From positions 1 through 57,903 of the forward strand of contig VHCW01000020.1 in assembly GCA_016871575.1 (NCBI GenBank): DNA of 57,903 nucleotides, given 5' to 3'. Positions 11,259-56,755 of the stretch are shown piece by piece. Under the pieces are notes generated by a model, which did not search any database, was not told the origin of the DNA, and saw nothing but the letters and a program-made list of their open reading frames with translations. Origin of the DNA: Verrucomicrobiota bacterium (GTDB lineage: Bacteria; Verrucomicrobiota; Verrucomicrobiia; Palsa-1439). The position numbers and the translations under genes were made by a program. How positions within the stretch are numbered: the first letter of the stretch is position 1; the number at the start of each line of letters is the position of its first letter.

Positions 11259-14200
11259 ATGAATGACACCTACCGATGGCGACGCGGATTCTGGAGTTTG
11301 TGGGCGACTCAGTTCCAAGGCGCATTCAGCGACAATGTCCACAAGTCGCTTGTGACATTTCTTGTCGGCCACGCGGTCATCGCGCAGGCGCAACGCGACC
11401 AATTGGCTTCGCTGATTGGGATGTTGTTCGCGGTGCCGTTCATCGTGTTCTCCATGACCGGCGGCTGGCTGGCGGACCGCTTCAGCAAACGGCACGTCAC
11501 CATCGGCGTCAAACTGCTCGAAATCGCCATCATGTCCGTGGCCACCATCGGGCTGATCTGGACGAATATCCCCTTGCTGCTCGTTTGCATTTTCCTCATG
11601 AGCACCCAGAGCGCATTGTTCGGGCCGTCCAAGTACGGTCTCATGCCGGAATTGTTGCCGGAAAAGCGCCTCTCGTGGGGCAACGGATTGCTCGTGCTCG
11701 GCACCAACGTCGCCATCGTCAGCGGCGTGGCCGTCGCCGGGCCGATCTCCGATCATTTTCGCGACCAACGCGCTTATGCCGGGTTGGTGTTGATTGGACT
11801 GGCAGTTATGGGAACACTCACGAGCCTCGGAATCACGAAGATTCCACCAGCCAAAACCCAACGCCCGTTCCGTCTCAACTTTATCGCGGACCTTGTCGCT
11901 CAGATTCGGCTTATCCGCCGCGACCGGGTCTTGTTTCTGGCGGTGCTGGGCGACGTGTATTTTTCATTTCTCGGCTCGCTGCTGCTCCTGAACGTGTTCA
12001 TCTACGGCAAGGACGTATTTCACGCCACCGACACGCAGATCAGCTTCCTGCAAGCTGCGCTGGCCGTTGGCATCGGCGTGGGAAGTTTTGCCGCCGGGTA
12101 TCTTTCCGGCGGGAAGATCGAATACGGCCTCGTGCCGCTGGGCGCCATCGGCATCACAGTGTTTGCCGCGCTCGCCGGGCGGTCTGGACTCACCATCCCT
12201 GTTCTGGGCGTGCATCTCGGATTGTTGGGATTTGTTGCCGGCTTTTTCATCGTCCCCATTGTGGCGTTGATCCAGCACCGCCCAGAACGCGAGGTCAAAG
12301 GCGCGGTGCTGGGCGCCGTCAACACGCTCTCGTTCACCGGCGTTCTGCTCGGCTCGGCGGCGTTCTACCTGTTCCGACTTGCAGGACTCACCGCGCCGGA
12401 AATCTTCCTCGCGGGCGCTGTCATGACGGCTGTGGGAACGGTCTATATCGTGCGGTTGCTGCCGGATTCGTTGCTGCGCCTGGCGGTCTGGATGTTCACG
12501 CACTCCATCTACCGGATCAAGGTCGAGGGACGCGACAACATCCCGGAAAAAGGCGGCGCGCTGTTTGTGTGCAACCACGTCTCGTTCGTGGATGCGCTGC
12601 TGTTAGTCGCCTCGACCGACCGGATGTTGCGCGCGATCATGTTCAAGGACATTTACGATCTCTGGTTCGTCAAGCCGTTCGCGAAAGCGATGAAGGCCAT
12701 CCCGATTTCCTCGCAACTGCGTCCGCGCGAGATGATCAAATCCTTGCGCGAGGCCAGCGACGCCATCCGCAATGGCGAAGTGGTGATCATCTTTGCCGAG
12801 GGACAGATCACGCGCATCGGGCAGATGCTGCCGTTCCGCCGCGGGTTTGCGCGAATCATGAAAGACGTGGACGCCCCGATCATCCCCGTCTGTCTCGACA
12901 ACGTCTGGGGCAGCATCTTCAGTTTCGAGAAACGCCGGTTCGTCTGGAAAGTGCCCCGCTACTTCCCCTACCCCGTGACCGTCAGTTTCGGCAAACCGAT
13001 GACGGCGGCATCCACGCCGATCGAGGTTCGACAAGCCGTGCAGGACCTCAACGCCGATGCGTGGTCGCACCGGCGAAAGCTCCTATGGCCCATCCACCGC
13101 GCGTTTGTCCGCAAAGCCCAGCATCACCGCTGGCGGTTCTTCATGGCGGACGCATCGAAGCCGCGCCTGAACTTCGGCGCTGCCCTGACCAACATTGTCT
13201 TCCTCGCGCGCCGGTTGCGCGCCCTGTGGCGCGGCCAGCAGATGGTCGGCATCCTCCTGCCGCCGTGCGTGCCCGCCGCGCTCGTCAACTACGCCGCGCT
13301 CCTGCTCGGCAAAGTGCCCGTCAACCTCAATTACACCGCCAACGCCGAAGTCCTCGCCAGTTGCGCCCAACAATGTGACCTCAAGACGATCCTCGCGTCC
13401 CGCGTCTTCGTCGAGAGACTCAAACTCACCCTTCCCGTTGACGCAATTTATCTCGAAGAGGTCGCCGCCAAACCGGCGACCACCGAGAAACTCGTCGCGC
13501 TCGCCATGTCGTGGGTGCTACCGCCAAAAGCGTTGGAATGGAGTCTCTCCGGCAAAACGGCCATGCTCGACGATCTTGCCACTGTCATTTTTTCCAGCGG
13601 CAGCACGGGCGACCCGAAAGGCGTCATGCTCAGCCACTGGAACATCCGTTCCAATGTCGAGCAGATGGGACAAACATTTGCATTCCGCGCCAGCGACCGG
13701 ATCGTCGGCATCCTGCCGTTCTTCCACAGCTTCGGCTTCACCGCGACCATCGCCACTCCCGCCGTGCTCGGTTGCGGCGTCGTCTTCCACCCGTCACCGC
13801 TCGACGCCCGCGTCATCGGCGCGCTGGTGCGGAAATACCGTTGCACGTTCCTGCTGGCCACGCCGACGTTCCTCCAACTCTACTTGCGCATTTGCGAGGC
13901 GGAAGATCTCGGGAGCCTCCAGTATGTCGTCACCGGCGCGGAAAAACTTTCTGAACGGCTGGCGCAGGCGTTCGAAGACAAATTCGGCATCCGCCCCCTG
14001 GAAGGTTACGGCTGCACCGAATGTTCGCCGGTGGTGGCGGTCAACACACACGATTTTCGCGCCGCCGGGTTCCGTCAGGTGGGCGCGAAGCGCGGCAAGA
14101 TCGGTCATCCGCTGCCCGGCATCGCCATACGGATCGTGGATCCCGACACGCAACAACCACAGCCGGTCGGCCAGCCGGGATTGATGCTCGTGCGCGGCCC

Positions 14201-14663
14201 CAACGTCATGCAAGGCTACCTCGGCAAACCGGAAAAGACAGCGGAAGTCCTGAAGGACGGCTGGTACACCACCGGCGATGTGGCATCGCTCGACGAAGAC
14301 GGTTTCCTCACCATCACCGATCGTCTCACTCGTTTCAGCAAGATTGGCGGCGAAATGGTGCCGCACATCAAGGTCGAGGAAAAGCTCCACGAACTTGCCG
14401 CAGTGACCGAACAATGTTTCGCTGTCGCTGGTGTCCCCGACGAGAAAAAAGGCGAACGCCTCGTCGTCTTGCACACATTGCCCGACGACAAGCTGGCAGC
14501 AGTCATTGGGAGCCTGACGGCTGCAGAACTGCCCAACCTCTGGAAGCCGAAAGCCGATCAGTTCTTCCGCATCGAAAAACTGCCCGTGCTCGGCACCGGC
14601 AAGCTCGATCTTCGCAAGATCAAGGAGATTGCGGCTCAGAACTCACGGCGCGAGGTAGTTTGA
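11259..14663 (+). CDS. Fused lysophospholipid transporter / acyltransferase / acyl-ACP synthetase (LplT-Aas)
   Basis: A 1,134-residue three-part protein. Residues 1-400 are a 12-helix MFS transporter like LplT (FQGAFSDNVHKSLVTF at the N-terminus). About 415-610 is a PlsC-type acyltransferase with the catalytic NHVSFVD (about 440) and EGQITR (about 515). About 620-1134 is an AMP-forming acyl-ACP/acyl-CoA synthetase with SSGSTGDPKGV (about 780), the GYGCTECSP block and YTTGDVASLDEDGF. In E. coli, LplT flips lysophosphatidylethanolamine inward and Aas reacylates it; they are neighbouring separate genes. The fusion puts both steps in one inner-membrane protein. The 3' end overlaps the convergent gene by 21 bp. 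Confidence 0.92.
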   Translation: MNDTYRWRRGFWSLWATQFQGAFSDNVHKSLVTFLVGHAVIAQAQRDQLASLIGMLFAVPFIVFSMTGGWLADRFSKRHVTIGVKLLEIAIMSVATIGLIWTNIPLLLVCIFLMSTQSALFGPSKYGLMPELLPEKRLSWGNGLLVLGTNVAIVSGVAVAGPISDHFRDQRAYAGLVLIGLAVMGTLTSLGITKIPPAKTQRPFRLNFIADLVAQIRLIRRDRVLFLAVLGDVYFSFLGSLLLLNVFIYGKDVFHATDTQISFLQAALAVGIGVGSFAAGYLSGGKIEYGLVPLGAIGITVFAALAGRSGLTIPVLGVHLGLLGFVAGFFIVPIVALIQHRPEREVKGAVLGAVNTLSFTGVLLGSAAFYLFRLAGLTAPEIFLAGAVMTAVGTVYIVRLLPDSLLRLAVWMFTHSIYRIKVEGRDNIPEKGGALFVCNHVSFVDALLLVASTDRMLRAIMFKDIYDLWFVKPFAKAMKAIPISSQLRPREMIKSLREASDAIRNGEVVIIFAEGQITRIGQMLPFRRGFARIMKDVDAPIIPVCLDNVWGSIFSFEKRRFVWKVPRYFPYPVTVSFGKPMTAASTPIEVRQAVQDLNADAWSHRRKLLWPIHRAFVRKAQHHRWRFFMADASKPRLNFGAALTNIVFLARRLRALWRGQQMVGILLPPCVPAALVNYAALLLGKVPVNLNYTANAEVLASCAQQCDLKTILASRVFVERLKLTLPVDAIYLEEVAAKPATTEKLVALAMSWVLPPKALEWSLSGKTAMLDDLATVIFSSGSTGDPKGVMLSHWNIRSNVEQMGQTFAFRASDRIVGILPFFHSFGFTATIATPAVLGCGVVFHPSPLDARVIGALVRKYRCTFLLATPTFLQLYLRICEAEDLGSLQYVVTGAEKLSERLAQAFEDKFGIRPLEGYGCTECSPVVAVNTHDFRAAGFRQVGAKRGKIGHPLPGIAIRIVDPDTQQPQPVGQPGLMLVRGPNVMQGYLGKPEKTAEVLKDGWYTTGDVASLDEDGFLTITDRLTRFSKIGGEMVPHIKVEEKLHELAAVTEQCFAVAGVPDEKKGERLVVLHTLPDDKLAAVIGSLTAAELPNLWKPKADQFFRIEKLPVLGTGKLDLRKIKEIAAQNSRREVV

Positions 14664-16076
14664 CAGGACGTTGACGTTCCGTATGAACGTCGCGCAGGAG
14701 ATGAGTTTGTCCGACGGCAACCGTCGTTTTTCCTTTGCCTGATTCGGACTCAACCATCGTCCTTGGCTGTCGAGCGCGGCAATGACCTTTGTCACCTCCG
14801 ACGGTTTTGGTCGCGACGCCTTCCATTCGTTTTCCGCACGCTCCGGCCGCAACCGGCTCACATCAGTTTGCAACAGACGCTTGTACTGTGCCTCAACCCG
14901 CTCAAGCCTGCTGTCTTGTTTGAACGAATAATGTGTCGGCATGTCGCTGTCGTCGTAGCTCAACTGGTAATCTTTCGTGAAATACAACGGCTTGTTTGTT
15001 TGCAATTCGTAGAACCGCGCCAAACGGCCATCGGGCATGGCTGATTTCTTCAGGTATTCCACGGCGCGCGGAATGGGTTCGAGATATTTCCGATTGCCGG
15101 TCTCTTGATAGATGTGCATGAGGATTTGCAGGATGCCCTGCGATTCGCCGCCGGTGATGGAAGGCGGCTCGAACTTTCGCGCCCACGCGGGCTGCATGTC
15201 CGCGTTGTACTGTTGCGCCCACGCCGGTTGCGGGTCGGGCATTTGCGCCAGCAAAATAAACTGCCCGCACTTCTCGGCCGATTCACGGTACTTGGGTTGT
15301 TGATAGACCTTGCCCGCAAGGAACATCAAGGCAATAGCATCCGCCATCGCATTGTCGTTGAACGTGTAGTAGTCGTAATACTTCACAGCGGGAAACGTGC
15401 GCGACCATGTCGCCGGATAAGAAGCCTTCTTCACGGGGAACTTGGAAGCGTCAGGCGCGCGGTCAAACCGCTGCGGCCATGCGCCATTCGGGTATTGCGC
15501 TTCCATCAGTTTCCGCAAGCCATACTCCACGACTTCGTGGACCTTTGCATCCTTGAATCCGAGCGTCTGGTCCAACAAAACCAAAAACCGCAACGCCGCC
15601 TGCGTCGTGTTGTCGTCCAGAACACTGATGTTCGACAAACTGCTGGATTTCCCTGTGCGTTCCACACGGTACGCGTATTTCTGGCGGTGTTTCGGATCGA
15701 AATCAATCCGGTACGCCCACCCGCCGGATTCCAACTGGCCGCGCCGCAGACAATCACCGGCTTTCCTGGCTAGGTTCAAATAATAGGAATCTTTCGTCGC
15801 GTGATATGCCCGCAAGAATGCCATCGCAACCGACGGCGTGCCCGGCGGCTGCACCCAGACGGTTGTCGCCGGTGCGATTCCTTCCCCTGCCCGGTGTTTC
15901 AGGTCCTCGCTGTAATCCCAGAGGTAACCGCCTTCGGTGGATACGTGCGTGTCAAAATACTCGCATGCCCGGCGCAACGCCTGCGCCGCCTTGTCGCGCA
16001 AGGCCGCATCCGCCGCATGCGCCGTGCATCCCACAATGACACACCCGATCAATATCGTGAAGAAAGGTATTCTCAT
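14643..16076 (-). CDS. Exported pectate-lyase-like protein (PL10-type, PF09492)
   Basis: A 477-residue alpha-toroid protein. The signal region MRIPFFTILIGCVIVGC ends in a possible lipobox (IVGC); AHAADA gives an alternative signal peptidase I site. Blocks typical of the Pec_lyase family occur in order: LESGGWAYRID, MEAQYPNGAWPQRF, YDYYTFNDNAMADAI, PAWARKFEPPSITGGESQG and KDYQLSYDDSDMPTHY. It probably cleaves polygalacturonate or a related acidic glycan in the periplasm or at the cell surface. It is the last gene of a four-gene minus-strand operon, 66 bp after the PPC gene; the longer frame to 16112 lacks a better signal sequence. PVC genomes often hold inactive relatives, so activity is uncertain. 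Confidence 0.72.
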   Translation of the reverse strand: MRIPFFTILIGCVIVGCTAHAADAALRDKAAQALRRACEYFDTHVSTEGGYLWDYSEDLKHRAGEGIAPATTVWVQPPGTPSVAMAFLRAYHATKDSYYLNLARKAGDCLRRGQLESGGWAYRIDFDPKHRQKYAYRVERTGKSSSLSNISVLDDNTTQAALRFLVLLDQTLGFKDAKVHEVVEYGLRKLMEAQYPNGAWPQRFDRAPDASKFPVKKASYPATWSRTFPAVKYYDYYTFNDNAMADAIALMFLAGKVYQQPKYRESAEKCGQFILLAQMPDPQPAWAQQYNADMQPAWARKFEPPSITGGESQGILQILMHIYQETGNRKYLEPIPRAVEYLKKSAMPDGRLARFYELQTNKPLYFTKDYQLSYDDSDMPTHYSFKQDSRLERVEAQYKRLLQTDVSRLRPERAENEWKASRPKPSEVTKVIAALDSQGRWLSPNQAKEKRRLPSDKLISCATFIRNVNVLSNYLAP

Positions 16077-16142
16077 GGCGCGCAGCATAGCCATCATCGT
16101 CTCCCAGCACAATCCTGCTGCGTTGATTTTACGGTGGCACTT

Positions 16143-18449
16143 TTATTTGATCAGGCGGGCCTCGATACCGGCGATTTCACGGTTCGCGAACTCGTCGGTG
16201 AAGAACCACTCTTGGTAAAGATTTTCGATCTGTCTGAGATACCACTCGACTGAAGATCTTGTCAGTGTGGGGTTCACTCCCTTCGGGCGATCCTCCTCAC
16301 GAATCGGCGGGCGAATGCGATCGGCTGGTGGTTGGTAGGATGGATTGAATACCAGGACTGGCAGCGTTTCCGCGGGCAACAGATGTCGCCAGAGGAACGC
16401 CTGCATCCTGTCCTCAGACGGCATGGCCTCGCGAACGATCTCGCGATCCCCGATTTTCACGGCGCCCACGACAATGAGGTTGATCGGGTGTTCCGTTTCC
16501 GCAAGACTGGTTTTCAGCGACAGCCCGACAGATTCTTGTTTGGCCGCCAGAGTGGCGCCGGGGGATTCGAACCCCTGCGGCAGGTCTTTAAACTTCAGCG
16601 TAATCGACCCATCAAACCCGTCCTTGCGGATGGCGAAGACAGTGACGTTGGCGGCTCCCTTGCTTGGCATGACGATCCGGGACGGAACCACACGCAACAC
16701 AAAATCAGGTTGCGGCTGGCTGATCCGCAGCCGATACGCGTGCTCCTTGCCTGCACCCCGCCTCGTGTCGCCGATGTGAATGAAGTATTTCCCGTCGGCG
16801 GGCAGTTTCACCATGAGATAGGAATCAGCATGGTCGGTGTTCAACCCGGATGCCGCGTCGTAATAATCGTCGTTCAACGCGATAATCTTGCCATCGGGAC
16901 CGGCGACCTTGACGAAGGAATCGAACGGCGATCCGAGCCGTCGCGCGTGCACTTCCGCGACAATTGTCTCGCCGGCTTTTCCTTCCACCTCGAAGACGTC
17001 CCAGTCACCGGGGCGATCTGATCGTCCGTTGACGATGATGGGAAGATTCACCTTCTGCGCCTTGGACGCGTCGTCGTTGGGTTCTTTCTCGATGCACTCG
17101 GGGAGCGTGTCCAAGACGAACGGCACGTAGTTGGAAACAAGTTTCCCGTTGGTGGCGGCGATGAGATGGCGCCCCGGTTTTGCGTCCTTGGCCGGCGGTG
17201 CCAGCGTGGTCTTTTCGAGATTCCAGCCGTCCATCTCGATCTTGACCGGTTCGCCGACGCGCCCGCCCAACGGGAAGATGCTGGTCACGAAGGGCAGTTC
17301 GCCGATGCTGATCCGATAGACAAAACTCTCGCGACCGCGAAACAACGCCTCATTGATGGTCAGGAGATACTCGCCGTCATCGGGCACCACGAAATAAATC
17401 AGCGGATCAGGATCGAATCGGAAATCGTCGCTGTAGGCAACCTCCTTGCCAGTGCCGTCGTAGAGCCGGAGCACGGCTTGGAACCAACCGGGAACGCCAT
17501 CCGGCACGTAGGGAACCAAGTGACGCGCCCTGACAGAGATGACCAGCCGCTGTCCTTTGGCCGCCGCGAAACGATAGCGATTCACCTCGCCCGCCGCGAT
17601 CTGACCGTTCATCGTGCACGGCACCGAGACGCGCATCTCTTCTTCTTCCGCTGGCCGGTTCCGCTGGGACAAATGCTCCTTGCCGAGGACCGGAAGCCGC
17701 ATGGTCTTCATCGGTTTTCGAGCGACTTCCGGCACTTGGCCGACGTAGAACGGCAGCGCGTTGGAGACGCCGCGCTTGGTGATCACGCGGATCTCGCGCT
17801 GTCCCGGTTTTGCGTTCGGGTCCACGGTGATCTCGGCAAAAACAAGCTCGGTCTGGGAACGCACGGCAGGATCGCGCTCGTCTTCCGCAAACCGCCTTTC
17901 AACCCGGTTGATTAATTTCTGCTTGGCCAGTTCCTTCTCGGATTTGGGAGGTTCATTCTTCGCCTCCTGCGCTACGGTCTTTGGCTCTTTGGGCTTTTCC
18001 AGCTTCACATTGCATCTGACGCAGAGGGTGGCATCCGGCGCGTTGGCAGTGGCGCACACGGGGCAAAGCAAGGAGTGAACCGCGTCGGGACCGGTCGCCG
18101 GCCCGATGGGCGCGTGAAACTCGAAGAAGGACATCTTGGCGGCCATGGCGTCATCCACTGTCGTTTCCTTCTTGCGCAACTCGCCAAGTTGGCGGTTCAG
18201 CAACGCAAGTTCCTCATTGCTCATGATCCGGTAATGATCAATCAAGCGCACGGAAACTCCTTCCCCGCTCACAACCACATCCGAGGCGTGCGCAAGCCCC
18301 TGGCCACCCAGCCGAACCGGGAAGGTAGTCCCCTGCTGGCCGCCGGCGGGATAGACGAAGCCGATGTATTGGTTCTGCGCCCAAACTGCGGACGCGGCAA
18401 CCAGCCACAAGATCAAACACTTGCTGAATCTTACAGTGCTCATCATCAT
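16143..18449 (-). CDS. Exported PPC-domain protein with zinc ribbon
   Basis: A 768-residue protein starting at three consecutive ATG codons with a signal peptide (FSKCLILWLVAASAVWAQ). An N-terminal beta domain (YPAGGQQGTTFPVRLGGQGL) and a helical insert are followed by a double-CXXC zinc ribbon (CPVC and CVRC, about residues 125-150) and a Lys/Glu/Pro-rich linker. Two bacterial pre-peptidase C-terminal-like beta domains follow (about 280-400 and 455-580; PECIEKEPNDD marks the second). Its start lies 1 bp after the DUF1501 stop, so the two are translationally linked. Such PPC proteins accompany DUF1501/DUF1553 proteins in Planctomycetes and Verrucomicrobia; their function is unknown. A zinc ribbon in an exported protein is odd. 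Confidence 0.75.
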   Translation of the reverse strand: MMMSTVRFSKCLILWLVAASAVWAQNQYIGFVYPAGGQQGTTFPVRLGGQGLAHASDVVVSGEGVSVRLIDHYRIMSNEELALLNRQLGELRKKETTVDDAMAAKMSFFEFHAPIGPATGPDAVHSLLCPVCATANAPDATLCVRCNVKLEKPKEPKTVAQEAKNEPPKSEKELAKQKLINRVERRFAEDERDPAVRSQTELVFAEITVDPNAKPGQREIRVITKRGVSNALPFYVGQVPEVARKPMKTMRLPVLGKEHLSQRNRPAEEEEMRVSVPCTMNGQIAAGEVNRYRFAAAKGQRLVISVRARHLVPYVPDGVPGWFQAVLRLYDGTGKEVAYSDDFRFDPDPLIYFVVPDDGEYLLTINEALFRGRESFVYRISIGELPFVTSIFPLGGRVGEPVKIEMDGWNLEKTTLAPPAKDAKPGRHLIAATNGKLVSNYVPFVLDTLPECIEKEPNDDASKAQKVNLPIIVNGRSDRPGDWDVFEVEGKAGETIVAEVHARRLGSPFDSFVKVAGPDGKIIALNDDYYDAASGLNTDHADSYLMVKLPADGKYFIHIGDTRRGAGKEHAYRLRISQPQPDFVLRVVPSRIVMPSKGAANVTVFAIRKDGFDGSITLKFKDLPQGFESPGATLAAKQESVGLSLKTSLAETEHPINLIVVGAVKIGDREIVREAMPSEDRMQAFLWRHLLPAETLPVLVFNPSYQPPADRIRPPIREEDRPKGVNPTLTRSSVEWYLRQIENLYQEWFFTDEFANREIAGIEARLIK

Positions 18450-18450
18450 G

Positions 18451-19848
18451 CTACAGGATTTCTTCCAGAAGTCCGGCTGACTTCATGCCTTCGTTCTCGG
18501 TGTCCAACACGTAGGCATCCAATCCCCACGGATGCGGCAGCTTGGCCTTGGCGTCTATCCCAGCCAACAAGTACATGCTTCCGAGCAAGTCCGAAGGATA
18601 GACGGGACGCTCTTTGACCTTTTCTCCTTTTTCATCGGAGGCGCCGACCACGCGGCCGCCTTTGAATCCGCCGCCGGCCACCAGCACGGTGAAGACATCT
18701 CCATAATGATGCCTTCCGCCGTTCCACGGCGGTTCCCACGATATCTTCAACGTCCGACCGAACTCACCGGTGCACCAGACCAACGTGGTATCAAGCAGGC
18801 CGCGTTCTTTCAGGTCCGCGAGCAGTGTCGCCAGCCCTTGGTCCAACATCGGGCACTGCGCCTTCATCGTCGCGAAGTGGTTCGCGTGCGTGTCCCAACC
18901 ACCGGGGAAACTGATCGTGACATACGGCACACCCGCCTCGACCATTCGCCGCGCTGCAAGACATTCCTGGCCGAACGTGTTTCGCCCGTAACGATTCCGG
19001 AGTTCCGTGGGTTCGTTGTCGAGATTGAACACTTCCTTCCCCTTGCCCAAGATCAATCCGTAAGCCTTCTGCTTGGCTGCCTCGGCGGCATCCATCTCCG
19101 GGTTGTCCGCCAGCCCGTAGCCCAAGAGATTGACCTTATCGAGCAATTCGCGGCGAGCCTGCTGACGACCGTCGTTGATTCCGCGGTTCACGATCCCCTG
19201 CACCTCGAAGCGTTCCGCGTTCGGGTCGCCGCCGGTGGCAAACGGTTTGTAGGCGGGACCAAGGAACCCTTCCTCAGAAAACCGCCCGGCGCCCTGCAAC
19301 ATCACGATGTACGGGGGAAGCAATCCCTTGTATTGCTCTTTCTTAAAGAAGGCGAAAATGGCGCCCACGCTGGGATAGGCCAGCCGGCCGCCGGGCTGGT
19401 GGCCGGTTTGCATCAGGTAGGCCGCCGTCTCGTGGCCATTGTTCCCGTGGGTCATGCTACGGATCAGGGAGTACTTGTCGGCCTGCTGTGCCAGTTTGGG
19501 GAACAGCGAACTGAGTTGAATCCCATTCACGTTGGTGGGAATGACCTTGTCAAACTCGCCGAGGTAATCGTAGCCCGTGCCCGGTTTCGGGTCCCACGTG
19601 TCGTTGTGCGACATCCCGCCCCACAGGAAAATCTGGATCACCGATTTCGTTTGGCCTTTCTTGGCCTTGGCCTTGGCCGCCGTGTCGCGAGCAGCCTTCT
19701 CTTCAGCGGCTTTCTGTTCCGGTGTCTTCGCAACCTCGGCTGCAAGAATCCGCGAACTCAAACCGCCGGCTGCGATCAACGCGCCGCGTCGTATGAGTTC
19801 CCGACGGGAGAGATGCACTCGATTGTATGAATGGTGGTTTGTCGTCAT
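18451..19848 (-). CDS. DUF1501 protein (Tat-exported, sulfatase/alkaline-phosphatase-fold)
   Basis: A 465-residue DUF1501 protein. The N-terminus has a twin-arginine signal (SRRELIRRGALIAAGGL). An Ala/Lys/Glu-rich stretch follows (EQKAAEEKAARDTAAKAKAK), recalling the coiled coil of the upstream gene product. The core shows FLWGGMSHNDTWDPKPG, LIRSMTHGNNGHETA, TISFPGGWDTHANHF and VWCTGEFGRTLKIS. DUF1501 belongs to the alkaline-phosphatase/sulfatase superfamily, but the substrate is unknown. AAGGAGA stands just upstream of the ATG. It lies 22 bp after the DUF1549/DUF1553 gene, the standard pairing in PVC bacteria. Confidence 0.9.
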   Translation of the reverse strand: MTTNHHSYNRVHLSRRELIRRGALIAAGGLSSRILAAEVAKTPEQKAAEEKAARDTAAKAKAKKGQTKSVIQIFLWGGMSHNDTWDPKPGTGYDYLGEFDKVIPTNVNGIQLSSLFPKLAQQADKYSLIRSMTHGNNGHETAAYLMQTGHQPGGRLAYPSVGAIFAFFKKEQYKGLLPPYIVMLQGAGRFSEEGFLGPAYKPFATGGDPNAERFEVQGIVNRGINDGRQQARRELLDKVNLLGYGLADNPEMDAAEAAKQKAYGLILGKGKEVFNLDNEPTELRNRYGRNTFGQECLAARRMVEAGVPYVTISFPGGWDTHANHFATMKAQCPMLDQGLATLLADLKERGLLDTTLVWCTGEFGRTLKISWEPPWNGGRHHYGDVFTVLVAGGGFKGGRVVGASDEKGEKVKERPVYPSDLLGSMYLLAGIDAKAKLPHPWGLDAYVLDTENEGMKSAGLLEEIL

Positions 19849-19870: not shown

Positions 19871-22800
19871 TCAATGCCGCATAAGAAATTCCGGCGTGTT
19901 AATCAATGCCCACGCAAGATCAACCCACACGTCGCGCCCTCCTGCCGCGCCGGACTTGGCGTGTTCCTCGGCGGCCATCACGTCCGCGTCCGTCGGCAAC
20001 CGCGACAGGATCGTCAGGTAAAGCCTCTCTGCGATTTCCTTCGCGCTGCCGCCCGCGGAGAGCATCGCGCCGAGTTTCGGGCCGCTCTGCAGCTTGCCCT
20101 GGATGGTGGCCGAGTTCAGCATGTGCAACCACTGCGGCGAGGCGAGTTCGTTGACGCGCTCGTCTTCCAACCCAGTGGCGCGCGCCGACCGTCCGAACAG
20201 CGTCAGGAACGGACTGGTGATGCTGCCGTCGGCCAGCGCCACGGCCGTCACATGCTTGGGAATGTACGTGAACGGCTCCGGCACAGCGCTGGTGTAAAGG
20301 TCCGAGCTGCCGGTGATGTCGTTCAAGGCGTCAATCAACACCTCAGCCTCCACCCGCCGCAACGGGTAGCTGGCGAAGTTGGCCCTCGCTTCCGGTCCCT
20401 TGGCTTTCGCCATCGAAGAGAACTGGTAGGCGGTCGAGGTGAAAATGAACCGCTTCAGGTGTTTCAGATTGTAGCCGCTGGAGACCAGTTCTTTCTCCAA
20501 GCACGCCAAAAGCTCCGGGTTGCTCGGGGGGTTGTTTTCCCGGATGTTGTCCGGCTCGTGGATGATGCCGCGTCCCATCGCCCACGCCCAGATGCGATTG
20601 ACGATGGCCTTGGCGAACCACGGATTGTCCGGCCGAATCAACCACTCGGCAAACATTTCGCGCGGATCGCGGTCGGGCGGAATTGTTATCGTCGTGCCGT
20701 CCGGAAAGACAGCCGGCAGCGGCCCGTTTTCCGTCAGCGGCTTGGCGAGCGACTGGGGAATCTGGTTGGCAATGGTCACGGCTTTCGCCACGGCGTCCAC
20801 GCCCGGCGCAATGCTGCCGGGCACCGCCGTTGATTTGAGCGGATCCCAGAAGATGATCTCCTCTTTCCACTCGCTGGTCGGCTTGTAACCGACCTGCGAG
20901 AAAAACGCCGCCATGCCGGCGCGACGGTCTGCCGGCCAGAAATCAACCCGCGTGCCCATCAACGTCAATCCGACGACCGCAGCGATGCCCTCCGGCGTAC
21001 GGTCCTGAATGGCGCGGTAGAAGTTCACGGGGCCGACGCGGAAATTGCTGCCGCTGGATGTGAGCAGTTCGCGGGCAAACTTGTCATACGGCTTGTTTTG
21101 GGCGACTAGTTCCCACACCCAACGATGATACGCCTGCGCGGCGTTGGGCCACACTTTGACGGGGAACTCCGCCTTGACCCTCAGGATGTCGCACCATTTC
21201 ATCGTCCAGTAATCAACATGCGCAGTCCGGTCGAGGAGCCGATCAATCAGGGCGACGCGTTTGTTTTTGCCTGGATCCTGGATGAACGCCTTCGCATCTT
21301 CGGCCGTGGGCAGCTTGCCGGTCAGGTCCAGATGCGCGCGACGGACAAAGACCGCGTCGGAGCAAAGCGCCGGCTGAATGCCCAACGTCTTCAACTTCGC
21401 GAAGATGATCTCGTCAATCCGGTTTGCCGGCTGTGGTGGATCGGGACTTTCCAGAAGTGTTGCCATTTGTTTGGCGGCAAGCAGCCGGTATAGCGCGCCC
21501 TTGGCCTGCTCGGTCAAAGTGCGCTTGTTATCGGCAAGATCCACGGCGGCCGTGTACGCTGCGCGTGTTTTGTCCGCTTCCGCCTTCAACGGCGCAGCCG
21601 CGGCCTCCGCTTCCGCAGCCGCCTTGTCGTCGGCAACGTGTGTCTGTTTGGCCGAGGCAATGCGATTCTTGAGTCCCAGCAGGAATTCCTCGGTTGATTT
21701 CTTCCGCGCCTCCGCCTGAGTCAATCTCTGCGTGGCCGCGTTGGCTTGAACCGTCGCCTGCTCGGCCTTTTGCTGTGCCGGTGCCAGCGCCGCCTTGGCT
21801 GTGTCGGCTGCTTTGCGCTTGGCTGCAGCATCGGCGGCGGTTTGCGCGCGCACCGCATCCAACTGCAAAAGTTCCTTTGCGGCTTCTTGTGCCGATTGAC
21901 TCGCGGCGGTGGCGGCAGCAACCTGTTTCTTGGCGTTCGCCAGCGATTCGTCGGTCGCCTTCTTCCGCGCCTCCGCCTCCGTCACTTTCTGCGCCACAGC
22001 GACGGCCTTGGCTTCCGCCTGTTGCACCGCCTGGGTGGCTATGTTGGCGGTGGCCAACTGTTTCTTCAGATTCTCCAAAGCCTCGTCAGAAGATTTCTTT
22101 TCTGTCTGCGCTTCGGTCAGCTTCTGCTCGGCAACCGTGACTTGCGTCTGCGCTTGCTGCTCGGCCTGCCTTGCTTGCGTCAACGCCGCCGCGGCGTCGG
22201 CTGCTGCTTTGCGCTTGGCGGCGGCTTGTGCTGCCAACTGCTTTTTCTCCTCGGCTGATTTCTCCGCGGCTTGCGCACCTTGCTCGGCGGTCTGTGCCGT
22301 CGTTTCCGCGGCAGCCACCTGTTTTTTTGCGCCGGCCAAGGCGGCATCGAGCATTGTCTTCTGTGCTGTCGCTCGCGCGAGATTTTTCGCCGCGACATCA
22401 GCTTGAGCTTGCGGGTTCTGCTGGGCTGCCTGCGCTTGAGACAACGCCGCCTTCGCCTCGTCGGATGCTTTGCGTTTGGCGGCAGCGTCGGTTTCGGCTT
22501 GTCGTTTCTGTTCCTCGGTTCTGCCAGCGCGCCCGGCCATCGCCTTGGCGTTGGCTTCCGCTGCTTGGGCAGCTTGCTCGGCGGCCTGATAAGCGCCGTT
22601 GGCATCGGCGAACTTCTTTTTCGCGACGGTCAAGGCATCGTCGGTTCCCTTCTTTTTGGCGGCGGCATCGGTCAGGTTCTTGGCAGCGGTGTCAGCCTGA
22701 ACTTGCGCTTGTTGGTGCTGCTGCTGAACTTGGGCCAATGCAGCCTTTGCCTCGTCGGCCACTTTGCGTTTCGCGGCGGCATCAGCCGTGGCTTGTTGTT

Positions 22801-24829
22801 TTTGCTGGTCGCTCCTGCCGAAAAGAGTCGCGATCCTCTTGCTTTTGCCTTCCGACGCCTGCGCCTCTTTCTCCGCGGCGTCCGCCGCGCCGGTGGCTGC
22901 GGCGACCTGCTGCTTGGCGCCGGCCAAAGCGGTCTCCGCTGCCTTCTTCTCGGCGTCAGCGTCCGCTGCCTTCTTGGCGGTGGCATCAGCAGCGGTTTGC
23001 GCCTGTTGTTGTTTCTGTTGCGCGTGGGACAACGCGGCATTGGCATCAACGGCTGCTTTGCGCCTTGCAGTTTGCTCGCGGACAACCTGCGCGAGTTCGG
23101 TGACGGATATCAGTTTGGTATTCGCAGCGTTCGCAGCCGCTTGGGCAGCCTGCGCGGCCTGTTCGGCTGCTTGATGCGCTCCTTGGGCGGCGGCCACCTG
23201 GTTCTTGGCGTTGGCCAGCGCTTCGACGGTTGCCTTCTTCTCTGGTTCGGCGTCCGCCCCTTTTTTGGCGGCGGCATCGGCAGCGGACTGCGCTTGTTGT
23301 TGTTTCTGCTGTGCTTGAGCCAACCCGGCCTTGGCATCGTCGGCTGCCTTGCGCTTGGCGGCAGCGTCGGCAGCGGCCAGTTGTTTTTGCTCCTCGGCAC
23401 CGGCGGCGCGTTCCGCCATCGTCTCCGTCGTGGAGACCGACACTTGGACGGCCTGCTCAGCGGCCCGCCAAGCGGTCGTGGCAGCGGTCACTTGGTTCTT
23501 GGCTCCGGTCAAGGCTTCGGCGGCAGCTTTCTTTTCCGCTTCCGCGCCCGCGACTTTCTTCACAGCGGCATCAACAGCGGTCTGCGCCTGTTGCTGTTTC
23601 TGGTGCACTTGCGACAACGCAGCCTTTGCGTCATCAGCGGCTTTTCGTTTTGCAACGGCCTCGTTGGCTGCTTGGGCGATTTCGCCGAGCGATATCGCTC
23701 TCGCGTCGACGGCTGCCGCTTGGGCCGCTTGTTCGGCGGTGTGGTGCGTGGCAGCGGCTGTGTCCAACTGTTTCTTGGCCGCAGCCACCGCATCGTCGGC
23801 TGCCTTCTTCTGCGTTTCCATTTCCGCCAGCTTTTGTGCAGCCGCGCCGGCTTGGACCTGCGCGTGCTGTTCGTCTTGCTGCGCCTGTGTGAGGCCGGCC
23901 TTCGCCGCGTCAGCCGCTTTGCGTTTGGCGGCAGCGTCGGCTGCGGCCTGCTGTTTCTCCACCTCGGAAACCGGCTTCGCGTTGACGCCAGCCGCTTGGG
24001 CCAACGGCTCGGCTGTCTGGTGTGCGGTCGCGGCAGCGGCCAACTGTTTCTTCGCGGCGGCCAACGCTTCATCAGCGGTCTTCTTCTGCGTTTCCGCTTC
24101 CGCAAGCTTTTGCGAGGCGGCGCTGGATTGGCCCTGCAAATGCTGCTCGTTTTGTCGCGCACGAGCGAGCGCGGCTTTCGCCGTGTCAGCCGCCCTGCGT
24201 TGGGCGGCTGCTTCGGTCGCGGCACGTTTGCCTTCGTCATCGAGCTTGTTCGCCGCGTCGGCGGCAACCTTCGCAACGGCTGCGGCCTCCTTGGCAGCGT
24301 TCTCGGCGAGGTCGTATGCTTGTTGCAGCGGTAGCGCGATGGCTTTCGCATCGGCAGCCGCTTTGTCCAAGGGAGGTTTGGCGTTGGTCGCATCGGACAA
24401 CGAGCGAATGGCAATGATTACGTTGTCCTCGCCCTGCTTCAACTCGGTCACGCCCGATTCGCCGGCCAATCGTTTCGCGTCAGTGGCCTGCTGACGTTTG
24501 CTGTCGGCAATTTTCTTGGCTGCGGCGTATGCGAGGTCGGCCTTTTGCATGGCAGCCCGCAACGGAGCGATGGCAGCATCCGCATCCTGGGCTGCCTTCT
24601 GTGCCGCTTCGTAGGCGGCTTTTGCCTTGCCCTCCGCGTTGGTATCAGCCGCCGTATTGGCTGATTGGGGCTGTTCCCCGGCCTGAACCGCGGCACAAAT
24701 GAAGATGAGCAAGCCGGCCACAAAGGCCAACCGACTATCCTTGGCCTTGGAGGCTCCAGCACTGCCTTCACCACCATGTTGCGTGAGTGTAATCACTGGT
24801 AAGCTCAGGGCCAACGCAGCCGCGAGCAC
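19871..24829 (-). CDS. Giant coiled-coil DUF1549/DUF1553 protein
   Basis: A 1,652-residue protein with a GTG start. A hydrophobic export segment (RLAFVAGLLIFICAAVQA, about 33-50) is followed by roughly 1,070 residues rich in Ala, Lys, Gln and Glu. This stretch is built from nine imperfect units of about 85-98 residues (one with an extra half), each beginning AKRKAAD-like. It should form a very long coiled coil. From about residue 1133 DUF1549 appears (RIDEIIFAKLKTLG, LDLTGKLPTAEDAKAF), then DUF1553 (DPREMFAEWLIRPDNPWFAK, VNRIWAWAMGRGI). Most family members instead carry an N-terminal cytochrome domain with CXXCH; none is present here. The GTG sits 5 nt behind a TATAAT box; initiation further in cannot be excluded. 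First gene of the exported-protein operon. Confidence 0.85.
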   Translation of the reverse strand: MLAAALALSLPVITLTQHGGEGSAGASKAKDSRLAFVAGLLIFICAAVQAGEQPQSANTAADTNAEGKAKAAYEAAQKAAQDADAAIAPLRAAMQKADLAYAAAKKIADSKRQQATDAKRLAGESGVTELKQGEDNVIIAIRSLSDATNAKPPLDKAAADAKAIALPLQQAYDLAENAAKEAAAVAKVAADAANKLDDEGKRAATEAAAQRRAADTAKAALARARQNEQHLQGQSSAASQKLAEAETQKKTADEALAAAKKQLAAAATAHQTAEPLAQAAGVNAKPVSEVEKQQAAADAAAKRKAADAAKAGLTQAQQDEQHAQVQAGAAAQKLAEMETQKKAADDAVAAAKKQLDTAAATHHTAEQAAQAAAVDARAISLGEIAQAANEAVAKRKAADDAKAALSQVHQKQQQAQTAVDAAVKKVAGAEAEKKAAAEALTGAKNQVTAATTAWRAAEQAVQVSVSTTETMAERAAGAEEQKQLAAADAAAKRKAADDAKAGLAQAQQKQQQAQSAADAAAKKGADAEPEKKATVEALANAKNQVAAAQGAHQAAEQAAQAAQAAANAANTKLISVTELAQVVREQTARRKAAVDANAALSHAQQKQQQAQTAADATAKKAADADAEKKAAETALAGAKQQVAAATGAADAAEKEAQASEGKSKRIATLFGRSDQQKQQATADAAAKRKVADEAKAALAQVQQQHQQAQVQADTAAKNLTDAAAKKKGTDDALTVAKKKFADANGAYQAAEQAAQAAEANAKAMAGRAGRTEEQKRQAETDAAAKRKASDEAKAALSQAQAAQQNPQAQADVAAKNLARATAQKTMLDAALAGAKKQVAAAETTAQTAEQGAQAAEKSAEEKKQLAAQAAAKRKAAADAAAALTQARQAEQQAQTQVTVAEQKLTEAQTEKKSSDEALENLKKQLATANIATQAVQQAEAKAVAVAQKVTEAEARKKATDESLANAKKQVAAATAASQSAQEAAKELLQLDAVRAQTAADAAAKRKAADTAKAALAPAQQKAEQATVQANAATQRLTQAEARKKSTEEFLLGLKNRIASAKQTHVADDKAAAEAEAAAAPLKAEADKTRAAYTAAVDLADNKRTLTEQAKGALYRLLAAKQMATLLESPDPPQPANRIDEIIFAKLKTLGIQPALCSDAVFVRRAHLDLTGKLPTAEDAKAFIQDPGKNKRVALIDRLLDRTAHVDYWTMKWCDILRVKAEFPVKVWPNAAQAYHRWVWELVAQNKPYDKFARELLTSSGSNFRVGPVNFYRAIQDRTPEGIAAVVGLTLMGTRVDFWPADRRAGMAAFFSQVGYKPTSEWKEEIIFWDPLKSTAVPGSIAPGVDAVAKAVTIANQIPQSLAKPLTENGPLPAVFPDGTTITIPPDRDPREMFAEWLIRPDNPWFAKAIVNRIWAWAMGRGIIHEPDNIRENNPPSNPELLACLEKELVSSGYNLKHLKRFIFTSTAYQFSSMAKAKGPEARANFASYPLRRVEAEVLIDALNDITGSSDLYTSAVPEPFTYIPKHVTAVALADGSITSPFLTLFGRSARATGLEDERVNELASPQWLHMLNSATIQGKLQSGPKLGAMLSAGGSAKEIAERLYLTILSRLPTDADVMAAEEHAKSGAAGGRDVWVDLAWALINTPEFLMRH
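21560..24208 (-). repeat. Nine-unit coding repeat array within the coiled coil
   Basis: Repeat starts recognisable by the codons for AKRKAAD recur near 24205, 23925, 23640, 23350, 23056, 22770, 22480, 22207 and 21815, a period of about 275-295 bp, with one 390-bp interval. Units differ at many positions, so the array is old rather than freshly expanded. Confidence 0.8.
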
Positions 24830-24834
24830 AGCGT

Positions 24835-24862
24835 ATTATAATCAAGGAGTGGAGTTTGGCAA
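24835..24862 (-). promoter_or_regulatory. Promoter of the four-gene exported-protein operon
   Basis: Minus strand TTGCCA (24862-24857), 16 nt, perfect TATAAT (24840-24835), then 5 nt to the GTG at 24829. The plus strand also reads TATAAT at 24837-24842 but without a -35. Confidence 0.7.
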
Positions 24863-46775: not shown

Positions 46776-46985
46776 CGTTATCGCGGTCAGTATAACGGTT
46801 ATATCGGTCAATATAACGGTTATCGCGGCCAGTCCGAAGGTTGTATCGGTCAGTCCGAAGGTTATCGCGGCCTGTCCAAAGGTTGTATCGGCCAGTCTAA
46901 CGGTTATCGCGGCCAGTCCGAAGGTTGTATCGGTCAGTCCGAAGGTTATCGCGGCCAGTCTAACGGTTCTCTTGGCCAGTGTAAT
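46776..46985. repeat. 21-bp minisatellite, ten copies
   Basis: Ten head-to-tail units of exactly 21 bp with consensus GGTTATCGCGGCCAGTCCGAA, alternating ATCGCGG and GTATCGG forms so that the true period is 42 bp. Because 21 is divisible by 3, frames stay open on both strands: the minus strand encodes heptads such as AAITFGL/TDTTFGL, the plus strand GQYNGYI/GQSEGCI without a start codon. An inverted partial copy (GACCGTTAGACTGGCC) flanks the left side at about 46727-46744. Confidence 0.9.
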
Positions 46986-47214
46986 GGTTTCCTTGTTCAA
47001 GGAAATGCCGGGAGCCATCAAGATTATCGTCAGACTGGCCCGTTCCGGGGTTATCTCAATGAAGATTTCGCCGGTACTGGCCAATATAATCGTCGGACGA
47101 TCACGGTTGACGCCGGTCGCAAATAAGTTCTTGCCCCTCGTCTGGGCGACTCGGCTTGGGGCGTCATGTTCCGGTGATGTTCCAGTTAGGTCGCTTGTGA
47201 TACAATCAATCGAA

Positions 47215-55626: not shown

Positions 55627-56755
55627 GCCACGAAGAACGCGAAGACGAAGTTGTAGGCCGCGTGACCTCACGCGGCGGGGAAAACCGGGGCGCGGACAGC
55701 GAAGGGTGAAACCACGGAAGACACAGAATACACGGAAGGAAATTCACCACGAAGGACACGAAGAACGCGAAGACGAAGTTGTAGGCCGCGTGACCTCACG
55801 CGGCGGGGAAAACCGGGGCGCGGACAGCGAAGGTGAAACCACGGAATACACAGAATACACAGAAGGAAATTCACCACGAAGGACACGAAGAACGCGAAGG
55901 CGAAGTTGTAGGCCGCGTGAACTCACGCGGCGGGGAAAACCGGGGCGCGGACAGCGAAGGGTGAAACCACGGAAGACACAGAATACACGGAAGGAAATTC
56001 ACCACGAAGGACACGAAGAACGCGAAGAGGAAGTTGTAGGCCGCGTGACCTCACGCGGCGGGGAAAACCGGGGCGCGGACAGCGAAGGCGAAACCACGGA
56101 ATACACAGAATACACAGAAGGAAATTCACCACGAAGGACACGAAGAACGCGAAGATGAAGTTGTAGGCCGCGTGAACTCACGCGGCGGGGAAAACCGGGG
56201 CGCGGACAGCGAAGGCGAAACCACGGAAGACACAGAATACACGGAAGGAAATTCACCACGAAGGACACGAAGAACGCGAAGGCGAAGTTGTAGGCCGCGT
56301 GACCTCACGCGGCGGGGAAAACCGGGGCGCGGACAGCGAAGGCGAAACCACGGAAGACACAGAATACACAGAAGGAAATTCACCACGAAGGACACGAAGA
56401 ACGCGAAGGCGAAGTTGTAGGCCGCGTGACCTCACGCGGCGGGGAAAACCGGGGCGCGGACAGCGAAGGCGAAACCACGGAAGACACAGAATACACAGAA
56501 GGAAATTCACCACGAAGGACACGAAGAACGCGAAGGCGAAGTTGTAGGCCGCGTGACCTCACGCGGCGGGGAAAACCGGGGCGCGGACAGCGAAGGTGAA
56601 ACCACGGAATACACAGAATACACGGAAGGAAATTCACCACGAAGGACACGAAGAATGCGAAGAGGAAGTTGTAGGCCGCGTGACCTCACGCGGCGGGGAA
56701 AACCGGGGCGCGGACAGCGAAGGGGTGAAACCACGGAAGACACAGAATACACGGA
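55627..56755. repeat. 127-bp tandem repeat array, nine copies
   Basis: The hairpin core GTTGTAGGCCGCGTGA starts at 55650, 55778, 55905, 56033, 56160, 56287, 56414, 56541 and 56668, intervals of 127-128 bp. Each unit holds CACGAAGGACACGAAGAACG, then the hairpin CCGCGTGA-cc-TCACGCGG, a GGGGCGCGGACAGCGAAGG spacer, and CCACGGAA-type words ending CACAGAATACAC. Units differ by only a few bases. 127 is not a multiple of 3, so the ORFs across it are artefacts. No spacer variation, so not a CRISPR. Confidence 0.95.

Follow-up and report, generated by a model that had tools for sequence, protein, structure and literature searches.

The DUF1549 and DUF1553 domains are present in 41 copies each in Rhodopirellula baltica (PMC2754498), and the functions of the PSCyt/PSD proteins are unknown, a role in carbohydrate metabolism having been suggested (PMC5615132). 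Modules containing DUF1501 are preferentially present in compartmentalised PVC species, according to passages in PMC4452313 and PMC4960237 that cite Kamneva et al. 2012. As reported in these passages, the DUF1501-containing PVC gene module of Kamneva et al. 2012 resembles the locus described here in that DUF1501 is flanked by exported PVC-type proteins; however, the cited passages make no mention of a coiled-coil stalk or of a DUF1501 tail, and the coil studied here is confined to one clade. Within the literature covered by our search, no publication combines DUF1501, planctomycetes and coiled coil.

We analysed a 57,903-nucleotide stretch of DNA from a Verrucomicrobiota bacterium, referred to as the window, which encodes a protein that has in common with the planctomycete-specific PSCyt2/PSD1 proteins both domains above the Pfam cut-off, export and a DUF1501 neighbour. 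It differs from them in that CXXCH and PSCyt1 are absent, the DUF1549 match ends at position 126 of the 209 in the profile, and a coil of about 1,070 residues occupies the N-terminal part. The gene, its candidate promoter and the parts of its product, all on the minus strand, are listed below.

19871..24829, minus strand: stalk-head gene, an open reading frame with its start inferred from orthologue starts
24835..24862, minus strand: sigma70-like promoter TTGCCA-16-TATAAT, read in the sequence, a candidate by consensus match alone
24680..24796, minus strand: Sec-type signal peptide, residues 12-50, cleavage after AVQA; orthologues have the same pattern
24224..24679, minus strand: N-terminal coil cap, residues 51-202, weaker unit-HMM matches, conserved in orthologues
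23978..24223, minus strand: coil unit 1, residues 203-284, unit HMM 111 bits
23702..23950, minus strand: coil unit 2, residues 294-376, 120 bits
23441..23674, minus strand: coil unit 3, residues 386-463, 112 bits
23132..23377, minus strand: coil unit 4, residues 485-566, 133 bits
22850..23089, minus strand: coil unit 5, residues 581-660, 106 bits
22547..22795, minus strand: coil unit 6, residues 679-761, 122 bits
22253..22501, minus strand: coil unit 7, residues 777-859, 119 bits
22019..22240, minus strand: coil unit 8, residues 864-937, 97 bits
21872..22039, minus strand: partial coil unit, residues 931-986, 70 bits, HMM positions 23-78
21596..21844, minus strand: coil unit 9, residues 996-1078, 109 bits
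21452..21595, minus strand: C-terminal helical cap at the coil-to-head junction, residues 1079-1126, AlphaFold helix 1066-1126
21053..21421, minus strand: DUF1549/PSCyt2 domain, residues 1137-1259, Pfam, first 126 of 209 profile positions
19964..20662, minus strand: DUF1553/PSD1 domain, residues 1390-1622, Pfam

The frame comprises 1652 codons from GTG 24829 and coincides exactly with that of the original prediction. The true translation start is probably near GTG 24796 (1641 codons) rather than at GTG 24829, because aligned orthologues begin with MKH or MKNGVEG at about the equivalent place. The sigma70-like element (24862-24835) immediately precedes GTG 24829 and, given the position of this candidate promoter, a transcript on which translation started at that codon would be nearly leaderless. 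The signal peptide is of the cleavable type, with AVQA ending before residue 51, and the protein is predicted to be exported or secreted.

The coil lies between the signal peptide and the DUF1549/DUF1553 head, and residues 55-1125 consist of 34% Ala, 12% Gln and 11% Lys. Self-identity of the stalk was maximal at an offset of 98 residues, and a unit HMM of 83 positions detected nine full units (>75 bits), the number counted originally; residues 931-986 gave a partial unit, and matches towards the N terminus were weaker. The full units show a mean pairwise identity of 52% (range 40-69%). A periodicity check revealed a hydrophobic period of 3.48 residues (z=10 at 3.5 versus local shuffles), and the unit profile displayed a classical 3/4-spaced heptad core with two positions that are 78-84% hydrophobic, one of them holding 40% large aliphatics, commonly Leu/Val, while Ala makes up 73% of the second. 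Since this heptad periodicity exceeds local composition, the region qualified as a coiled coil, as had been proposed. Pro and Gly are few in the stalk, and several inter-unit linkers contain G/P/N and show a lower heptad signal. Pfam recognised nothing N-terminal of the DUF1549/DUF1553 domains, and the stalk, used as a query against its own genome, matched the stalk-head gene only, with no separate gene encoding the repeats. Domain II of TolA is likewise a long, Ala/Lys-rich exported helix ahead of a C-terminal head and is thus analogous to the stalk-head protein. Compared with TolA, however, the signal peptide looks cleavable and the unit repeat is unlike Tol; Pfam found no TolA match in the stalk-head protein, and the operon partners are DUF1501 and PPC proteins, not Tol.

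In the head, Pfam identified DUF1549 (PF07583; 95.9 bits, 4e-27, gathering cut-off 29.8) and DUF1553 (PF07587; 127.3 bits, 8e-37, gathering cut-off 28.5) and no PSCyt1 domain, while stalk residues 51-1130 contain no Cys and hence no CXXCH. The absence of CXXCH had been noted correctly, but the accompanying claim that the coil replaces a cytochrome-type domain did not hold. The subfamily of the window head (relatives 50-67% identical) has no N-terminal cytochrome domain; the nearest stalk-less relatives (about 50-67% head identity, two same-genome paralogues included) are mostly signal peptide and head alone, and CXXCH domains occur in DUF1549 proteins that are only about 35-39% identical (10/10 examined). 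Because the closest stalk-less relatives consist of signal peptide and head only, the coil was added to a head without a cytochrome domain and did not replace CXXCH in this subfamily. PDB sequence searches with the head, DUF1501 and the stalk gave no significant match, the head being without a confident PDB relative, and no NCBIfam family was matched. Two other proteins, from relatives in the same family (G001 C196, L013 604-2961; G004 C25, L007 1498-3732), resemble the window protein in that their homologous heads (52-59% identity) are likewise extended N-terminally, but there a hydrophobic segment and a Pro-rich linker follow an FHA domain, in place of the coil. It is possible that these FHA-DUF1549/DUF1553 fusions link cytoplasmic phosphothreonine reading to an exported head.

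The stalk-head gene is followed by two adjacent genes on the same strand, in the order stalk-head, DUF1501, PPC.

18451..19848, minus strand: DUF1501 protein, 465 aa, Tat-type signal RRELIRR..., Pfam 1.5e-93
19651..19737, minus strand: Ala/Lys/Glu-rich tail of DUF1501, residues 38-66, largely missing in stalk-less operons
16143..18449, minus strand: PPC-domain protein, 768 aa, exported, Pfam PPC, the conserved third gene
18012..18065, minus strand: CxxC-x10-CxxC zinc-ribbon-like insert of the PPC protein, weak double-zinc-ribbon match, stalk operons only

Pfam confirmed the DUF1501 and PPC/zinc-ribbon partners named in the original prediction, the zinc ribbon by a weak match. The three-gene order is kept in 29 of 34 loci, with L064 and L086, whose heads are truncated, counted in the set; of the other five loci, three are cut by a contig end and two (L041 and L068) are real changes. 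In the latter two the stalk gene has no DUF1501 or PPC gene directly downstream, and in L068 it is followed by other exported genes, some of them sulfatase-like by eye. L069 carries a DNA adenine methylase-like gene and an HNH-type endonuclease-like gene (the latter judged by eye) between the stalk gene and DUF1501 (L069:7585-9503). Among stalk loci, identity is about 74-87% for DUF1501 and about 64-80% for the PPC protein.

In an alignment of DUF1501 proteins, the tail forms a discrete insertion between the Tat signal and the first conserved motif. The segment from the Tat core to SVIQ comprises 33-54 residues in 30 stalk operons, 7-17 of them K/R, versus 11-34 residues, 3-7 of them K/R, in 22 stalk-less operons, and the suggested co-occurrence of the stalk with an Ala/Lys-rich N-terminal DUF1501 segment was found in all stalk operons checked. 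The zinc ribbon of the PPC protein is present in the window and in 17 of 29 other stalk operons; all 19 stalk-less operons lack it. As stalk, DUF1501 tail and zinc ribbon fall within a single clade, their correlation represents one evolutionary association, and the three products changed together once, not repeatedly. DUF1501 is a putative member of the alkaline-phosphatase/sulfatase superfamily; the best matches for a profile of 12 DUF1501 proteins were sulfatases, at a nonsignificant E=0.11.

A pectate-lyase-like gene further downstream (14643-16112) was considered as a module member and dropped, as the searched neighbourhoods yielded one weak match, at a stalk-less locus. Elsewhere, the window holds a gene (11259-14663) whose 1,134-aa product joins MFS transporter, acyltransferase and AMP-binding domains in an LplT/Aas-like architecture by Pfam, 21/42/84-bp tandem repeats (46777-46989) and, close to the end of the contig, a tandem array of a 127-bp unit (55629-56752; 8.8 copies, 96% matches).

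Relatives were gathered by searching across the class (384 genomes) and by scanning GTDB contigs. This yielded 32 orthologous loci from independent assemblies, in which the head is at least about 70% identical and the N-terminal coil is rich in Ala (28-39%). Full units number 4-11 where the 5' end of the frame is intact and fewer where a contig end cuts it. Ten orthologues of similar length show 67-74% identity and keep the unit spacings (98, 87 and 91-92). The dN/dS values against nine orthologues of similar stalk length were 0.13-0.22 (about 1,027 stalk codons, with dS near saturation), and at the codon level the stalk is under purifying selection.

In a maximum-likelihood tree the stalk rows formed one clade (SH-aLRT 100), and the nearest stalk-less rows were planctomycetal (L070 and L072). 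The clade mixes Planctomycetota, Verrucomicrobiota, Lentisphaerota and Kiritimatiellota labels, which are mostly MAG-record labels and can be misassigned. The window protein belongs to it by head placement, Ala-rich unit-repeat coil and DUF1501 tail alike. L102, assigned as a stalk protein by length, was rejected, its N-terminus having only 10% Ala; it falls outside the clade. Because all stalked heads form one clade and their closest stalk-less relatives are signal peptide plus head, the coil was gained once. Its distribution is patchy: the stalk was detected in the window genome only among 11 genomes of the window's own family, in 8 of 384 genomes of the class and, for the family to which strain CA13 belongs, in about 11 of 241. 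The window head is 71-78% identical to those of five Planctomycetota genomes, while the prolyl-tRNA synthetase (ProRS) identity to the same genomes is only 52-59%; horizontal spread of the operon would be the simplest reading, with unusually strong conservation as the alternative.

One stalk locus lies in the record 'Planctomycetes bacterium CA13', on a contig of 8.58 Mb; this large-contig genome is probably an isolate. The original prediction had named two outcomes that would speak against it, a chimeric or collapsed assembly and a separate gene for the repeats in homologues, and neither was encountered. For an assembly artefact nothing speaks except the repetitive nature of the region; the same architecture in 32 loci of other assemblies, the CA13 contig included, refutes it, and the units within the window, being diverged to 40-69% identity, are therefore not assembly copies. 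The nearest homologues all have the repeats within the same gene. The stalk-head module is a real, conserved and apparently undescribed variant of a common, uncharacterised exported PVC module.

AlphaFold modelled the stalk (residues 51-1130, monomer, ten similar sequences) as nearly all helix with a pLDDT of 63 and a pTM of 0.27, the helix being broken at about eight places near the linkers. The head was modelled well; its model, which includes the last part of the coil, had a mean pLDDT of 81.7 and placed a short break between the last two helices (991-1060 and 1066-1126). Foldseek aligned these two helices with antiparallel hairpins, e.g., those of iSH2 and EmrA, and local matches of the stalk model to AcrA hairpins spanned 75-78 columns with an rmsd of 1.0-1.9, 26-28% identity and a probability of 0.99-1.00, at E values of 2.7-5.6. 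With the head and stalk models Foldseek returned nothing at E<0.001, and no known scaffold family matched the stalk by sequence or fold. Thus, of the long exported stalk holding a DUF1553 head that had been envisaged, the exported coiled coil fused to the head stands, on the signal peptide, the heptads and Pfam, whereas the AlphaFold model, at low confidence, favours antiparallel hairpins over a single 150-nm rod.

A parallel coiled coil that ran on unbroken as a rod would measure up to about 150 nm and project the DUF1553 head far off the cell or across the periplasm. This arrangement accords with the heptad period throughout the stalk, with the scarcity of Pro and Gly and with the common spacings of 98 and 91, which as multiples of 7 keep register in a continuous coil; moreover, a monomer prediction is incapable of showing a parallel oligomer. 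However, spacings of 87, 92 and 99 are out of register, the heptad signal drops at several linkers with G/P/N, the modelled helix is interrupted and its last two segments align with antiparallel hairpins, and neither end of the protein shows a membrane or wall anchor, and we consider such a rod rather unlikely. Alternatively, antiparallel helical hairpins of about 12 nm, each made of 1-2 units, could stack into a rod that is compact or resembles a string of beads and provides a platform for binding. The turns modelled at the linkers, flanked by helices with pLDDT of about 70-87, and the Foldseek matches to AcrA hairpins and other antiparallel coils argue for this arrangement, and Ala-rich heptad cores suit close antiparallel packing; yet the pTM is 0.27, just 10 similar sequences stand behind the model and no Foldseek match reaches E<0.001, and the stack is a doubtful though possible solution.

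Neutral low-complexity expansion through repeat slippage, giving a coil without specific function, would agree with the variable unit count among orthologues and with stalk-less sister operons that presumably work without the coil. It is hardly compatible with the dN/dS of 0.13-0.22, with the identity and conserved unit spacings of the ten similar-length orthologues, or with heptads that are maintained and partner proteins that show correlated changes, and we regard it as very improbable.

We tentatively prefer, with a probability of about 0.4, an exported scaffold or spacer module that positions the DUF1501 protein, the head and the PPC protein, with the DUF1501 tail docked on the coil. The DUF1549/DUF1553 head sits at the C-terminal end of the long, repeat-built, alanine-rich coiled coil, which may act outside the cytoplasm and self-associate, either as hairpins or as an oligomer. 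Because the DUF1501 tail correlates with the stalk, the coil may bind this Ala/Lys/Glu-rich segment near the N terminus of the Tat-exported DUF1501, and the hydrolase-like DUF1501, the head and the PPC protein could then co-assemble at a set mutual distance. The number of 83-residue units would set the length of the coil, and lineages would alter this number by duplication or loss. The stalk genes of L041 and L068, which lack adjoining partners, count against the scaffold, as do the single evolutionary association behind the correlated changes, the pTM of 0.27 and the absence of a match to any known scaffold family. A stronger version, in which the number of units determines how many DUF1501 proteins dock by their Ala/Lys tails on an undescribed extracytoplasmic scaffold, the whole being one assembly encoded by a three-gene cassette that spreads in PVC phyla, strikes us as decidedly unlikely.

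DUF1501, DUF1549 and DUF1553 genes are abundant in planctomycetes. The joint change seen in the stalk operons, where the head acquired a coil, DUF1501 a tail and the PPC protein a zinc ribbon, suggests that the three products form a physical complex, and the stalk variant offers a concrete handle on what the DUF1501/DUF1549/DUF1553 modules do.
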